This document shows, in pieces, positions 1,349 to 14,645 of a DNA stretch of 14,645 bases. The notes under the pieces are model-generated. The model made no database searches, was not told the DNA's origin, and worked only from the letters and a program-made list of their open reading frames with translations. This DNA comes from an uncultured Atopobium sp. (lineage in GTDB: Bacteria > Actinomycetota > Coriobacteriia > Coriobacteriales > Atopobiaceae): NCBI GenBank assembly GCA_946647055.1, contig CAMPCT010000033.1, forward strand, positions 1-14,645. The letters are read 5' to 3'. A program made the position numbers and the translations under genes. The stretch's first letter is position 1; every line of letters starts with the position of its first letter.

Positions 1349-1561
1349 ATGGACATGGCGGCAGAGAAGATGACACCGGTGGTGGCCAAGGTCTCCCCGG
1401 CCGAGAAGGATCGCTTCTTCGAGGCCACGGAGCTCATCGGTACGACTCCATCCAACGCCATACGCATGTTCATCTGCGCGTTCAACCGCGCAGGCACGTT
1501 CCCGTTCGAGATCACGGCGCCAGCTGTGAAGGGAGGTAGGGATGCGCACGATGCTCGCTAA
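1349..1561 (+). CDS. RelB/DinJ-family ribbon-helix-helix protein (antitoxin-like)
   Basis: This 70-residue protein carries the N-terminal RelB/DinJ signature. A short beta strand around residues 11-15 is followed by helices containing GTTPSNAIRMF (31-41), and then AGTFPFE (48-54), a motif typical of DinJ-like antitoxins. Such proteins are dimeric DNA-binding repressors that usually also neutralise an RNase toxin of the RelE/YafQ type. The start is ATG 1349 or, two codons on, ATG 1355. Neither has a strong Shine-Dalgarno sequence, only a GAAACGAAG stretch. The tail after about residue 57 is short, so the toxin-binding part may be reduced. No RelE-type gene follows; a 47-residue ORF overlaps the 3' end instead. 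The protein may be a solitary regulator or the remnant of a toxin-antitoxin pair. Confidence 0.75.
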   Translation: MDMAAEKMTPVVAKVSPAEKDRFFEATELIGTTPSNAIRMFICAFNRAGTFPFEITAPAVKGGRDAHDAR

Positions 1562-1685
1562 CGCACGCTGGTCGTTCCTGCGTGTCGCGCTGTCCCTTGC
1601 AAGCGTGCTGCCGTGCTCGATGACCGCCCGGCTCCGCCAGGCCTTCATCGGATCATGCATGAGGTCCATGTGGTCCGGTCACTAG
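1542..1685 (+). CDS. Small hydrophobic ORF of 47 residues, unknown
   Basis: An ATG at 1542 follows a strong GGGAGG (1531-1536) at 5-base spacing and opens a 47-codon frame ending with TAG at 1683-1685. It overlaps the last 20 bases of the RelB-like gene in another frame, an arrangement typical of the second gene of a toxin-antitoxin operon. The product has a basic N-terminus, a hydrophobic stretch around residues 11-26 (WSFLRVALSLASVLPC) and a basic, Met- and Cys-containing tail. I recognise no family. It could be a small membrane protein, a membrane-acting toxin, a decayed toxin remnant or a chance ORF. The ribosome binding site and the overlap are the main support. Confidence 0.4.
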   Translation: MRTMLANARWSFLRVALSLASVLPCSMTARLRQAFIGSCMRSMWSGH

Positions 1686-1764
1686 GCGGCCATTCCCAGG
1701 AATGAGCCGCAGGTGAACGCACCACCAACGTAGCTTGTACGACACATAAATGCAGCAGTGGTCT

Positions 1765-1795
1765 CGCGCGTCCCCCCGGGGACGCGCGTTTCGCT
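1765..1795 (+). terminator. Strong GC hairpin, probable intrinsic terminator
   Basis: CGCGCGTCCCC (1765-1775) and GGGGACGCGCG (1778-1788) form a perfect 11-bp inverted repeat with a minimal loop. It is followed by TTTCGCTT, a weak T-rich run. It lies about 80 bases past the small ORF and before the pilus operon, so it most likely ends the RelB-like transcript. The short T-run makes its efficiency uncertain. Confidence 0.65.
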
Positions 1796-2058
1796 TCCGG
1801 GACCATTTCACGATGCCCTCTACCAGCGCATTCGGTGAACGGTAGGTGGGCGTGCATCTCCGTGCACGATTTCGTCGCCTCGCTGCAGGGGTTCCTTGCA
1901 GCGCGTCATTCGCTGTTTGCTAGAGGCCTGCCACGATATGGTCAGGCACCGGGACAAGTCATCCCCAAACCCCTGTGAGCCAGCCTTCCTCTGCGGAAGA
2001 ATCGTTCTCGAGGGCCGCCGAGTCGCGGCGCGCCCGCCCCGACATTCGCGAGGTGGAG
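1789..2058 (+). promoter_or_regulatory. Non-coding leader of the Tad pilus operon
   Basis: No convincing gene lies here. The region should hold the pilus operon promoter, but no strong consensus is visible. The best candidate is TTGCAG (1896-1901) with TAGAGG (1921-1926) at a 19-base spacing, which is poor. An imperfect palindrome at 1883-1901 (CTGCAGGG-GTT-CCTTGCAG, one G-T pair) overlaps that -35 candidate and could be an operator. The frame of the next gene stays open back to a GTG at 1975, but that GTG has no ribosome binding site. Confidence 0.35.
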
Positions 2059-11060: not shown

Positions 11061-11678
11061 ATGCGGGACGTGACGGTGACGTTTGGGCGACCGGGGACGT
11101 CCGTGACGGCACGTTGGCTCACGACCCCCCTGCAGCGCCTGCGAGGGCTGCTGCTCACGGGCAGTGATGCCCGGCCGGTGCTGCTCGAGGGATGTGCCTC
11201 CGTGCACACCTTTGGCATGGCATACCCCATCGACGTGGCGTTCCTTGGGCGCGACGGGTCGTGCCTGCTGTCGGTCCGCGGCATGCGGCCGGGTAGGGTC
11301 CTGGGCGCCAGGGGGTCGCGGCGGGTGCTCGAGCGCCCGGCAGCGGACGGACCCTGGCCGCAGAGGGGAGAGCGTGTCGAGATGACATATGGCCGCGGGG
11401 GAGGGGGATCTCCGCCGCGGAAGGGGGCCCAGGCCCCGCTGGTGACGAAGGACGCAATGGATGGGGCGAAGCCCCGGATGGGAGTTCGATCATGGCAAGG
11501 CAGTACTCGTTTGGCGGTTCGTCGATGCAGGCAGAGGAGCGGGAGCGGGCGGAGCAGGCCGAGGGCCAGGCGGTTGGCGTCAAGGTGTGCCCACGCTGCG
11601 GGGCGAGGCTCTTCGAGGACATGGACGTGTGCTATGGGTGTCTCTATGACTTCAGGAACCCGGGCGAGGGCTTCGTGA
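11061..11678 (+). CDS. DUF192-family protein, open frame running past the domain end
   Basis: Residues 1 to about 108 form a recognisable DUF192 domain: RLRGLLLTG, the central VLLEGCASVHTFGMAYPIDV (about 40-59), then VRGMRPGRV and PWPQRGERVE. Family members are usually 110-150 residues and often secreted. Their molecular role is not firmly known. Here the frame stays open for nearly 100 further residues, giving 205. That tail is arginine-, serine- and glycine-rich, looks non-native, and runs 187 bases into the next gene in another frame. The real domain probably ends near 11390, just before two G-runs and short GC hairpins. A lost stop codon, a frameshift or a sequencing slip are all possible. 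The start follows the previous TAG directly, with a weak ribosome binding site. It is the only cytoplasmic-looking product between pilin genes and the FHA gene. Confidence 0.68.
   Translation: MRDVTVTFGRPGTSVTARWLTTPLQRLRGLLLTGSDARPVLLEGCASVHTFGMAYPIDVAFLGRDGSCLLSVRGMRPGRVLGARGSRRVLERPAADGPWPQRGERVEMTYGRGGGGSPPRKGAQAPLVTKDAMDGAKPRMGVRSWQGSTRLAVRRCRQRSGSGRSRPRARRLASRCAHAAGRGSSRTWTCAMGVSMTSGTRARAS
11424..11475 (+). repeat. Two short GC hairpins between DUF192 and FHA genes
   Basis: GGGGCC-CA-GGCCCC (11424-11437) and GGGGC-GAA-GCCCC (11463-11475) are perfect short inverted repeats. The second closes with GCGAAGC, a known extra-stable hairpin loop sequence. It ends five bases before the GGGAG ribosome binding site of the FHA gene. 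They may be leader structures or leftovers of a non-coding spacer, which would agree with the DUF192 reading frame ending before this point. Confidence 0.45.
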
Positions 11679-12139
11679 GCCTTCCCGACCCAGAGGGGCA
11701 GGCATCGGGTGCCAAGTCGGCTGTAGCCGCCCGCCCCTTGGGCAGGCAGGCGGGACCGTCGTCGACAAAGGCCGGTCCCACGCCGCCTCGGGAGATGGCC
11801 ATGCCGGGCGACCCGGGGGCGACGCTCGCCTTTGGCAGCGAGCTGCCTCCCGTGGTGCTCAGGGTCAGGTCCCCGAACGTCGAGTTCGTTATCCCCGTGG
11901 GCGATGGTGGCGTCTCCTTTGGGCGGAGTCCCGAGAACGACGTCATCCTGCCAGCCCGCACGGTGTCGCGCGAGCACCTGCGCGTGGTGCGACGTGGTGA
12001 CGACACCATGGCGTTCGACCAAGGCGCGACCAACCCGACCCTCCTGAACGGCAACGCCATCTCGGGGGGCGTCAGGATCGCCGATGGTGACGTCCTCGAG
12101 GTGGGCAACGTCAGCATCAAGCTCGAGCCGGCCGGATAG
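11492..12139 (+). CDS. Zinc-ribbon and FHA-domain protein
   Basis: FHA domains bind phosphothreonine on partner proteins, linking a process to Ser/Thr kinases. The 215-residue product has an N-terminal four-cysteine ribbon (C33-P-R-C36 and C47-Y-G-C50), a low-complexity Pro/Ser/Ala linker (about 60-115) and a C-terminal FHA domain (about 120-213). Key FHA residues are present: G144-R145 in FGRSPENDV, S159 and H162 in SREH, and N186-G187 in NPTLLNG. ATG 11492 has GGGAG at 11480-11484, and ATG 11525 is an alternative. No kinase or phosphatase gene lies nearby in the window. As the last gene of the pilus block, it could bring phosphorylation control to the TadA/TadZ apparatus, but that is inference. 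No terminator is visible after its stop. Confidence 0.88.
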   Translation: MARQYSFGGSSMQAEERERAEQAEGQAVGVKVCPRCGARLFEDMDVCYGCLYDFRNPGEGFVSLPDPEGQASGAKSAVAARPLGRQAGPSSTKAGPTPPREMAMPGDPGATLAFGSELPPVVLRVRSPNVEFVIPVGDGGVSFGRSPENDVILPARTVSREHLRVVRRGDDTMAFDQGATNPTLLNGNAISGGVRIADGDVLEVGNVSIKLEPAG

Positions 12140-12204
12140 CGCAGGCCATACGCAGACCCTGTGCCTCCCTCGCCCGACGGATGGCACCTCCCCCGCACAT
12201 GCGC

Positions 12205-12210
12205 TATACT
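12205..12210 (+). promoter_or_regulatory. Probable -10 box of the TerB-like operon
   Basis: TATACT matches the -10 consensus at five of six positions and lies in a short AT-richer pocket between two GC-rich arms. The expected start would be about 12217. A -35 at 17-base spacing (TGGCAC, 12182-12187) is poor, so the promoter may need an activator or be intrinsically weak. Confidence 0.5.
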
Positions 12211-12212
12211 GA

Positions 12213-12226
12213 CGAACACGTGTACG
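12213..12226 (+). promoter_or_regulatory. LexA/SOS-box-like operator
   Basis: CGAACACGTGTACG matches the Gram-positive/actinobacterial LexA box (CGAAC-RNRY-GTTCG form) at 13 of 14 positions. The only change is A for T at position 12. Its centre is the perfect palindrome ACACGTGT (12216-12223). It sits three bases after the -10 box, over the expected start site, where LexA binding would repress. The host's own LexA consensus is unknown, so this is a candidate. Confidence 0.5.
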
Positions 12227-12254
12227 AATACCATGTGCGAGGGAGGTGCGGGCG

Positions 12255-14006
12255 ATGAACGCCGAGGAGATCGTCGAGCTCATCCTCAAGGCCGCGCGCG
12301 AGAGCCGCGTGTTCAGCGGCGACGTGTACCGTGACGAGCCCATCATCCGCACCGGCAGGCAGGCATATGGGGGCAAGGCCGCTCGCCAGCCTGCGGCGGA
12401 GCGCACCAGGATCCCCCGGGTCCAGCGGCCAGAACAACACCCCCGCCCGCGCGAGGGCCTGCCCATCTGGTCGTTCGCCCGCGACCTCGCCGAGGCGGCC
12501 ACCGAGGTGGTGACGCCCGTCCCCGAGCCCATCGCACGCATGCGTGACCTTGCCCGCAGGCGGGGGAGGGGCGCGTTCGCCTATGCGAGCCCCCAGCTCT
12601 TCTACGAGCAGGCCCGCCTCATGGAGAACTATGCCGACGACTTCCCCTACGAGGGCGACTTCAGCAAGTACTACCCCACGTACGAGGACATGACCAACAC
12701 GCAGCTCCGCGGGTACTTCACGTGGCGGGCGCGCCTGCGCGCGGGCGAGGCACCCGCGGCCCCGCTGTCGTTCCTCTTCGTGCACATCTACGAGTTGCTC
12801 TGTGGCGTGGGCGTCGCGGGGCCCGAGGAGGGCCTGGCGGAGCTCGTGCGGCTGCGCGAGTCGTATGGGCCCCGGCCCGGCAACGAGGCCCTCGTATCCT
12901 ACCTCGCCATCTGGATCCCCGACTACGTCGCCTATCACGGCCTCGACCAGTCCCTGCTCGACCTTGCGGGAGCCACGTCCCCGCTCGAGCATGCCATCGC
13001 GGTCCTTGACGCGGCGGAGAAGGCGCTGCTCTCAAGCGCGAGCCCTGGCATGTGGGACGAGTCGCTCCCAGGCATCCCCTCCCGTGCCGACCTCACCCTC
13101 GCCCTTGCAACGGCGTCGCGCTACCGGCTCGACCGCTCGCGCGCCTTTGGCGCGTGGCGCGACGAGCTGGACGAGTGCTGCTCCACCGTGTTCGCCCGTC
13201 TGGTCGACCACTGCCGTCGCCGTCGCAAGCGTGGCTTCGTTGACGGCCTCTTTGGCCAGGCGGAGGCCGTGCCCTATGTCATCTTCCGCTCGGCGGTCTT
13301 CTTTGACCCCAGGCCCCACGAGGACTGCGTGGTGAGCCTTGGGGAGCGTGGGTCGCTCGCGTGCCGCTCCGGCCGCTGGACGCGCCTGCGCCCGCACGCC
13401 TCCCCCAACGCAAGCGCCGAGCTGGGCGACATCCTCCACGAGGTCGACCGCGTCCTCCGCCTGCACAAGGGTGGCCTTCCCGAGCTCAAGGCCCGGGGCG
13501 TGCCCAAGTACGTCCATGCGATCGTCGAGGAGGAGGTCGGGTCGTGCCTCGCTCGCCGGGCTGCCGTGGAGGCCGCGCAGGTGCACATCGACCGCACGGC
13601 GCTGGTGGGCATTCGCGCCGCCGCATCGCGCACGCGCGAGGCCTTGCTCGTCGACGAGGAGCGTGACGACGCACCGGAGCCGCTGCCCGTGCCGCAGGTC
13701 GAGCCCGAGCTGCCCGAGCGGTTTGTGTCCCCCGGCGCCACGAGCATCGAAGGCGAGCCTCCAGCCGCTCCTGCCACCTCCCTGCCCGGGCTCTCGTCCG
13801 AGGACCTCGCGTTCCTTCGCGACCTGCTCGACGGGAGGCTCGACGAGGAGGCCCTTCGCGGGTACGGCATCAAGGCCTCGCTCTTTGCCGACCACATCAA
13901 CGAGGCCCTCCTCGACGAGGTGGGTGACACCGTGATCGAGTTCGACGGGGACGTCCCGCGCCTTGTCGAGGACTACGAGGAAGACGTGAGAAAGGCACTC
14001 GGATGA
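12255..14006 (+). CDS. TerB_N/TerB_C domain protein
   Basis: The 583-residue cytoplasmic protein matches the TerB_N pattern in its first half: DFSKYYPTYEDMTNTQLRGY (about 135-154), then a WRARLRAG turn and SFLFVHIYELLCGVGV (about 172-187). Its last 75 residues match the TerB_C pattern (LSSEDLAFLRDLLDGR, then FADHINEALLDEVGDTVIE and a final acidic helix). I see no clear central metal-binding TerB domain; the middle (about 320-510) is unassigned. The first 80 residues are basic, Pro/Arg-rich and probably disordered. Comparative genomics (Anantharaman, Iyer and Aravind) linked TerB_N/TerB_C proteins with ATPases and helicases in proposed DNA-processing stress systems. ATG 12255 has GGGAGG (12241-12246) 8 bases upstream. 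GTG 12246 lies inside that ribosome binding site and is unlikely. The stop overlaps the next start (ATGA). Confidence 0.8.
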   Translation: MNAEEIVELILKAARESRVFSGDVYRDEPIIRTGRQAYGGKAARQPAAERTRIPRVQRPEQHPRPREGLPIWSFARDLAEAATEVVTPVPEPIARMRDLARRRGRGAFAYASPQLFYEQARLMENYADDFPYEGDFSKYYPTYEDMTNTQLRGYFTWRARLRAGEAPAAPLSFLFVHIYELLCGVGVAGPEEGLAELVRLRESYGPRPGNEALVSYLAIWIPDYVAYHGLDQSLLDLAGATSPLEHAIAVLDAAEKALLSSASPGMWDESLPGIPSRADLTLALATASRYRLDRSRAFGAWRDELDECCSTVFARLVDHCRRRRKRGFVDGLFGQAEAVPYVIFRSAVFFDPRPHEDCVVSLGERGSLACRSGRWTRLRPHASPNASAELGDILHEVDRVLRLHKGGLPELKARGVPKYVHAIVEEEVGSCLARRAAVEAAQVHIDRTALVGIRAAASRTREALLVDEERDDAPEPLPVPQVEPELPERFVSPGATSIEGEPPAAPATSLPGLSSEDLAFLRDLLDGRLDEEALRGYGIKASLFADHINEALLDEVGDTVIEFDGDVPRLVEDYEEDVRKALG

Positions 14007-14645
14007 CGGACGAGACAACAAGGCCCAAGGTACCCCGGCGCATCGCGACGGTGCTCGTCAACTCCCTCAAGGGCGGGGTCGTGCCCCGCGTGGGGCTTCC
14101 CTACATCACCGTGGGCCGCGAGGCAGAGATCGCGGCGCTCCTGCGCGACCTCGAGATCGTGGCCGACGGAGGCGCCTCGTTCCGCTTCGTCGTGGGAAAG
14201 TACGGCAGCGGCAAGAGCTTCCTGCTCCAGACCATCCGCAACCACGCGATGGGCAAGAACTTCGTGGTGGCGGATGCGGACCTCTCGCCCGAGCGTCGCC
14301 TGCAGGGCACCAAGGGCCAGGGGTTGGCAACCTACCGCGAGCTCATCTCCAACCTCTCCACCAAGACGCGTCCCGAGGGCGGTGCCCTCACCCTCGTCCT
14401 CGACCGCTGGATCTCGAACGTCCAGCAGGAGGTGGTGGCAGAGGGCACCGCGCCCGAGGACCCGGCCTTCGCCTCCCTGGTCGAGCAGCGCATCCACGCC
14501 GTCATCAGCGACCTCCAGGAGATGGTCCACGGCTTCGACTTCGCCCGGCTCCTCTCGCTGTACTTCCGCGCCTACCTCGACGGTGACGACGAGGCCAAGG
14601 GCAACGTGGTCAAGTGGTTCCGCGGCGAGTACCGCACCAAGGCCG
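14003..14645 (+). CDS. DUF2791/BrxD-like P-loop ATPase, cut by window end
   Basis: This frame is open from ATG 14003 to the window end (214 complete codons) and is 3'-partial. It begins with about 25 basic residues, then VPRVGLPYITVGREAEI, the Walker A VGKYGSGKS (P-loop GKYGSGKS at 65-72), and conserved stretches VVADADLSPERRL, GTKGQGLATYRELISNLSTK and ALTLVLDRWI. These fit the DUF2791 family (BREX system ATP-binding domain, BrxD-like), AAA+/P-loop ATPases normally near 430-450 residues, so about half is visible. BrxD proteins are encoded with an Lhr-like helicase (BrxHI) in some BREX loci. The same ATPase also occurs beside TerB_N/TerB_C genes outside BREX. The ATGA overlap implies coupled translation with the TerB-like protein and a shared complex. 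A helicase or nuclease gene would be expected to the right. Confidence 0.85.
   Translation, partial: MTDETTRPKVPRRIATVLVNSLKGGVVPRVGLPYITVGREAEIAALLRDLEIVADGGASFRFVVGKYGSGKSFLLQTIRNHAMGKNFVVADADLSPERRLQGTKGQGLATYRELISNLSTKTRPEGGALTLVLDRWISNVQQEVVAEGTAPEDPAFASLVEQRIHAVISDLQEMVHGFDFARLLSLYFRAYLDGDDEAKGNVVKWFRGEYRTKA

Follow-up and report, generated by a model that had tools for sequence, protein, structure and literature searches.

The DNA analysed in this study (the window) is a stretch of 14,645 nucleotides from an uncultured Atopobium sp., and its last part carries the beginning of a Shango operon behind the end of a Tad-type pilus locus. The features at this junction were as follows.

11492..12139, forward strand: FHA-domain gene (Pfam FHA) that closes the Tad-type pilus locus, a possible source of read-through
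12181..12186, forward strand: weak -35-like hexamer ATGGCA (promoter scan, spacer 18), unconserved
12184-12201, forward strand: left arm of an inverted repeat, GCACCTCCCCCGCACATG, complementary to the Shine-Dalgarno region
12205..12210, forward strand: -10 box TATACT (promoter scan)
12213..12226, forward strand: box of the LexA/SOS type, CGAACACGTGTACG, covering the likely start site (expected near 12217-12220)
12232-12249, forward strand: right arm of the inverted repeat, CATGTGCGAGGGAGGTGC, containing the Shine-Dalgarno sequence GGGAGG (12241-12246)
12255..14006, forward strand: sngA, first gene of Shango (PADLOC SngA, E 8.7e-68; Pfam TerB_N and TerB_C)
14003..14645, forward strand: sngB, encoding a BrxC/BrxD-type ATPase and truncated where the window ends (PADLOC SngB, E 2.2e-90, 210/439 positions; Pfam BrxC_BrxD)

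The gene behind the promoter, which an earlier note on this DNA had taken for a defence gene, was thereby identified as sngA, and the partial sngB follows it directly, with an overlap at 14003-14006. The window stops within sngB; in three relatives tested, the gene order on a single strand is sngA, sngB, sngC. SngABC is described as an anti-phage system in P. aeruginosa and was also reported from E. coli (PMC10250203). The present operon resembles these systems in its TerB protein, its BrxC/D-type ATPase and, in the three relatives, the helicase SngC, whereas no LexA motif precedes the single E. coli plasmid copy examined. SngC may share one helicase group with BrxHI, DruE and DpdJ (PMC12278908). 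Among relatives, the closest to share this gene junction was locus L087 of genome G415 (DNA match of 69% over query positions 90-1467), and the top-scoring homologue with a species name was an Olsenella sp. protein (42% identity). Protein cluster P0001, taken to represent other strains of the species, has a SngA of 97% identity. Upstream, the pilus locus was recognised by the Pfam domains T2SSE and T2SSF, and the match of a TadA-family model was below the cut-off.

The earlier note had reported an 18-bp inverted repeat around the sngA promoter, and this observation was confirmed. The arms are complementary at 17 of 18 positions around a loop of 30 bases. Pairs of this quality with a loop of 3-60 bases were present in 0/300 dinucleotide-shuffled windows; by contrast, the weaker standard of 15/18 was reached in 182/300. 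The repeat is not a chance match. The geometry was also described correctly: TATACT and the likely start site lie within the loop, and the Shine-Dalgarno sequence in the right arm is separated by 8 bases from the ATG at 12255. The note had itself made its reading depend on arms that are conserved or co-varying, and here it did not hold, as the repeat was absent in the 22 relatives examined (best arm match 11-13 of 18 positions). At this locus, no Rfam family matched at the gathering score. Farther upstream of the left arm, GTGCCTCCCTCGCCC at 12160-12174 is, judged by eye, partly complementary to the Shine-Dalgarno region. In another locus (L027, about 1190-1290), the promoter and sngA are separated by a long palindrome that is nearly perfect.

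The loop also holds an element that the earlier note did not mention. Two bases past TATACT, with its start 8 bases after the first base of that hexamer and hence overlapping the promoter, lies the LexA-type box CGAACACGTGTACG, which has one mismatch to CGAACN4GTTCG. The annotated Gram-positive LexA box of Firmicutes and Actinobacteria is given as CGAACRnRYGTTYC (PMC2248561). The present box resembles it in the order of CGAAC, four bases and a right half, in its promoter overlap and in that relatives carry this type before recA, lexA and uvrA, and differs in a right half of GTACG instead of GTTCG and in having a defence operon as target. The GTAC half-site was counted against an SOS reading, and the same variant occurs in lexA promoters of relatives. 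The LexA of Bacillus subtilis 168 recognises boxes of this type. The box was scored with a symmetric motif model of 49 distinct sites (71 in total) from lexA and recA promoters only, including no sng site; the sites were gathered by loose half-site patterns, and some of them are noise. The best site of the window was the box at 12213-12226 (score 16.3, by lexA and recA promoters of relatives, the host's own lexA lying outside the sample), and the runner-up scored 10.5; that a model from lexA and recA promoters alone ranked this box first was counted in favour of SOS control. The pattern CGAACNNNNGTWCG had one exact match in the window, which is the box, and shuffled windows had a mean of 0.06 matches (8/200 with at least one). 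The repeat was also considered as a second operator of the same regulator; this candidate was rejected, as the centre of the repeat (12216.5) is displaced by 3 bases from the box centre (12219.5) and the repeat is unconserved.

The promoter layout was then compared among relatives. The promoter scan gave 9/12 matches for the -35 and -10 hexamers altogether. In an alignment of the window with the sngA upstream regions of its six closest relatives, TATACT and most of CGAACAnnTGTACG were invariant against a mean column identity of 59%, and the syntenic L087 carried a 14-mer identical to the window box with TATACTGA in front. Across 38 sngA promoters, the window included, a -10-like hexamer began upstream of the box start in 13, by 8-9 bases, and downstream of it in 4, by 16-17 bases, and in 17, by 21-25 bases; the four others differed. 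The operator has thus shifted among a small set of positions, and in most promoters it is placed where a bound repressor would block RNA polymerase. This position of most boxes within the polymerase span, at few fixed distances from the -10 hexamer, was also counted for SOS control. Two loci carry two LexA-type boxes that flank the -10 hexamer, one upstream and one downstream (L007, 1293 and 1320 of the oriented locus; L010, 968 and 1001).

Boxes were surveyed across Shango loci of Coriobacteriia, a class assigned to the sample via L002 (Candidatus Aphodovivens avistercoris), in which 167/396 genomes had a SngA match. The 74 sngA loci comprised L002, the 30 best matches, the next 40 listed and three more, with about 97 matching genomes outside the sample; L001, from Bacillota, was counted separately. 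A box was accepted at a score of at least 13 within 200 bases upstream of sngA, and the start positions of L001, L107 and L122 were set by hand before the final counts. The box preceded sngA in 37 loci and sngB instead in 30, and 7 had neither. Where a box stood at sngA and sngB was in view, a second box at sngB was found in 0/35 loci. Among the 7 box-less loci, L127 and L134 have sngB, which lay out of view in the other five (two of these, L034 and L130, stop at a contig end). An extended fetch of up to 6.9 kb was made for 15 of the 16 loci with neither a sngA box nor sngB (in L191 this was the entire 4.1-kb contig); it brought sngB into view in 11, with a box before it in 10. A box also preceded sngC in 4 of the 7 extended-fetch loci where sngC was visible. 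In L193, L195, L200, L203 and L215, sngC is separated from sngB and has a LexA-type box to itself, 36-58 bases ahead of the first residue aligned.

In the relatives sampled, the motif co-occurred with Shango transcription units. Sites scoring at least 13 in 75 loci numbered 39 in 15,375 positions inside sngA promoters and 23 in 316,202 positions outside. Of these 23, 20 lay at the sngA end facing sngB, one at the locus edge before sngB (L110), one at the sngA start itself (L107) and one within sngA (L031). Two simpler accounts were discarded: that the sngA box is background (9/325 random segments reached at least 10 bits), as 20 of the 23 outside sites of at least 13 bits precede sngB, and that loci with no sngA box are box-less, as many carry the box at sngB instead. 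A hold-out set took 20 places from the 22 that followed in the list, or the nearest that the list allowed (G375 was excluded for lying at a contig edge, and G078 was last); the box was found upstream of sngA in 19/20 loci, the miss being L212; eight of these loci share one 14-mer at a near-identical place, and the set does not represent 20 independent events. Its 102,973 positions contained 20 sites, of which sngA accounted for 19 and the last preceded sngC (L215). The box-at-sngA label required 3 changes on a SngA tree of 75 rows, which included the window and L001, omitted L090 as too short and had L107 and L122 labelled box-less. The survey, the hold-out set and the tree were counted in favour of SOS control, and the loci with no box (7/74 and 1/20) against it. 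The presence of the operator at sngB in loci with a separate sngA is comparative evidence for selection on this regulation.

The same motif type occurs at SOS genes of relatives, which was counted in favour of SOS control. Under a loose rule (at most 3 mismatches), a site was located before recA in 19/19 genomes fetched and before lexA in 17/19, several of the latter with a GTAC or GTGC right half. The recA site was within 150 bases of the matched start in 18 genomes and 465 bases before it in L074. In G393, CGAACACATGTACG precedes uvrA in the opposite strand sense, and the identical 14-mer precedes sngA in G358. Exact copies of CGAACANNTGTWCG, searched genome-wide in 8 genomes, were not enriched over a reversed control (15 versus 17 strand matches, palindromes being scored on both strands and 3/8 genomes having no match), a result counted against SOS control. 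Its 11 distinct places were 3 sngA promoters, 1 uvrA, 3 copies of a small ORF and 4 unexplained places in G171 and G180. The small ORF is conserved, encodes 120-124 amino acids and has CGTACACTTGTTCG about 40 bases in front (L078, L079 and L080, about 1501-1915, forward strand; G183, G393 and G358, respectively). Its L078 copy had no NCBIfam or Pfam match, and it is a possible SOS gene candidate. In both G171 (contig 73) and G180 (contig 1), LexA-type boxes that are perfect palindromes occur at a spacing of about 3.5 kb (L077, L081, L084 and L085), and one of them falls inside the start of a 200-aa ORF.

Outside Coriobacteriia, the box was less regular. SngA was matched in 30/391 genomes of the class of the Bacillota genome G002, and only 6 of 28 scored loci, G002 included, had a site of at least 13 within 220 bases before the chosen start. 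One of two Paenibacillus plasmid copies of Shango had the box. The plasmid copies from E. coli and Rhizorhabdus (one each) had neither this box nor the LexA motif of their own clade within one mismatch, and the Nonomuraea stretch had no site scoring at least 12. The box-less plasmid copies of E. coli and Rhizorhabdus and the low count in the class of G002 were set against SOS control. SOS control is thus indicated for the Shango operons of Coriobacteriia and some Bacillota, and not for Shango in general.

Because the conserved control element is a LexA-type box within the loop, sngA is most likely kept off by LexA. On the strength of promoter sequences and their comparison, we consider it highly probable that LexA represses the Shango operon and that DNA damage releases it. 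In the undamaged cell, a LexA dimer would sit on CGAACACGTGTACG, over the start site and beside the -10 box, and the sng genes would be off. RecA would be loaded on single-stranded DNA after DNA damage, or when a replication fork stalls or is degraded, as may happen during phage attack; LexA would then cleave itself, and Shango would be made. The cell may benefit by making its defence when it is needed. In this genome, the repeat may additionally silence read-through RNA. Among the matches listed for Shango, sng genes or TerB with SOS or LexA, with subscription papers mostly outside the search, no report of an SOS-controlled Shango was found. The one paper listed for Shango together with the SOS response concerns a V. 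cholerae genome. No description of Shango regulation was found in the literature searched.

SOS control could also be real and serve another end, in that the gene set in Coriobacteriia might act mainly in genome maintenance over phage defence. This view is compatible with LexA control and is rather unlikely. SngA was matched in 167/396 genomes of this class against 30/391 in the class of G002, a contrast that suits a housekeeping role and that stems from two different searches with different query types. Core genes occur as neighbours (metK and purL, as detailed below) and the box is common to repair genes, whereas the SngABC set was anti-phage where tested, in P. aeruginosa and E. coli, according to PMC10250203. 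The neighbours concerned are metK right before sngA in L014 (141-1430) and a phosphoribosylformylglycinamidine synthase (purL-type) gene divergent from sngA in L155 (3-2639, reverse strand).

The earlier note had instead placed control at the level of RNA, with the repeat insulating sngA translation from pilus read-through as the main mechanism and only RNA from the internal promoter being translated. Several of its premises were supported. A scan of 12000-12400 found no terminator-like site after the FHA gene, as the note had stated. RNA of 12140-12290 had a predicted fold of -60.5 kcal/mol (z -3.42), and equal stability was reached in 0/200 shuffles. The mean unpaired probability of the Shine-Dalgarno sequence was predicted to be 0.00 in read-through RNA and 0.52 in RNA starting inside the loop, and only 1% of 100 shuffled upstream sequences hid it as well as the native read-through RNA. 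In L087, which with the window makes up the two loci with the pilus junction, the Shine-Dalgarno sequence was also hidden in read-through RNA (unpaired 0.05; 6% of shuffled upstream sequences as low). Together with a repeat that exceeds chance, these predictions speak for silencing of read-through RNA; the lack of the arms in the 22 relatives speaks against it. Hiding by upstream RNA was seen in 2/10 relatives tested, L087 and L010 (1% of shuffled upstream sequences as low in the latter), and the other 8 did not exceed shuffled upstream sequences. L010 has no co-directional gene right upstream of sngA in the longest-ORF listing, which argues against a role tied to read-through, and the read-through RNA is itself hypothetical, with a predicted folding. 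Insulation as the main mechanism is accordingly improbable.

The repeat is a local feature rather than the main switch, because its arms were not found in the 22 relatives while most sampled relatives keep a box, and the hairpin is at most a local addition to LexA-type control. It could provide a second lock, as transcription entering from the pilus operon would escape repression by LexA at the start site. We regard such silencing of read-through RNA, proposed for this genome only and unsupported by conservation, as a tentative idea. In IS10/Tn10, read-through transposase RNA is inhibited by fold-back. The likeness lies in a left arm complementary to the Shine-Dalgarno region and a promoter within the loop, whereas here the neighbours are the FHA gene and sngA and not a transposase, and the repeat was found in this sequence alone. 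A gene under both kinds of control is SymE, a toxin that is induced in the SOS response and repressed by LexA, an antisense RNA and the Lon protease (PMC1891008). SymE/SymR resembles the present case in joining LexA with a possible RNA-level lock on one gene, and differs in that the RNA lock here would act in cis and on read-through RNA only. In the fullest form of the proposal, Shango would belong permanently to the SOS regulon in all Coriobacteriia, each transcription unit tending to be headed by a LexA operator (that of sngB, and sometimes of sngC, in loci with a separate sngA); damage would arm immunity, and in this genome the hairpin would be a second lock that stops pilus read-through from bypassing LexA. 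This comprehensive version is possible, though we would not expect all of it to hold.

Finally, it is very improbable that the box is the operator of another, Shango-dedicated repressor and merely resembles a LexA box: its GTAC half-site is asymmetric and some defence systems have their own regulators, such as BrxR for BREX (PMC10693628), but the motif, including GTAC and GTGC half-sites, precedes lexA, recA or uvrA in relatives and was recognised by a model with no sng site. The WYL repressors of the BrxR type provide a parallel in that a defence operon is repressed transcriptionally (PMC10693628), with the difference that the likely repressor here is the host LexA and no dedicated regulator. 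Taken as a whole, the interpretation in the earlier note was partly supported, being correct on the geometry, the RNA fold and the defence gene.

How defence systems are silenced until they are needed is a live question. LexA control through a conserved SOS operator offers a testable answer for Shango in a class of mostly gut-living bacteria, namely that the system would be made on DNA damage. If this is true, a system of BREX-like ATPase and helicase would be tied to genome-integrity signalling, and DNA-damaging treatment or prophage induction would be predicted to alter phage resistance in these bacteria.
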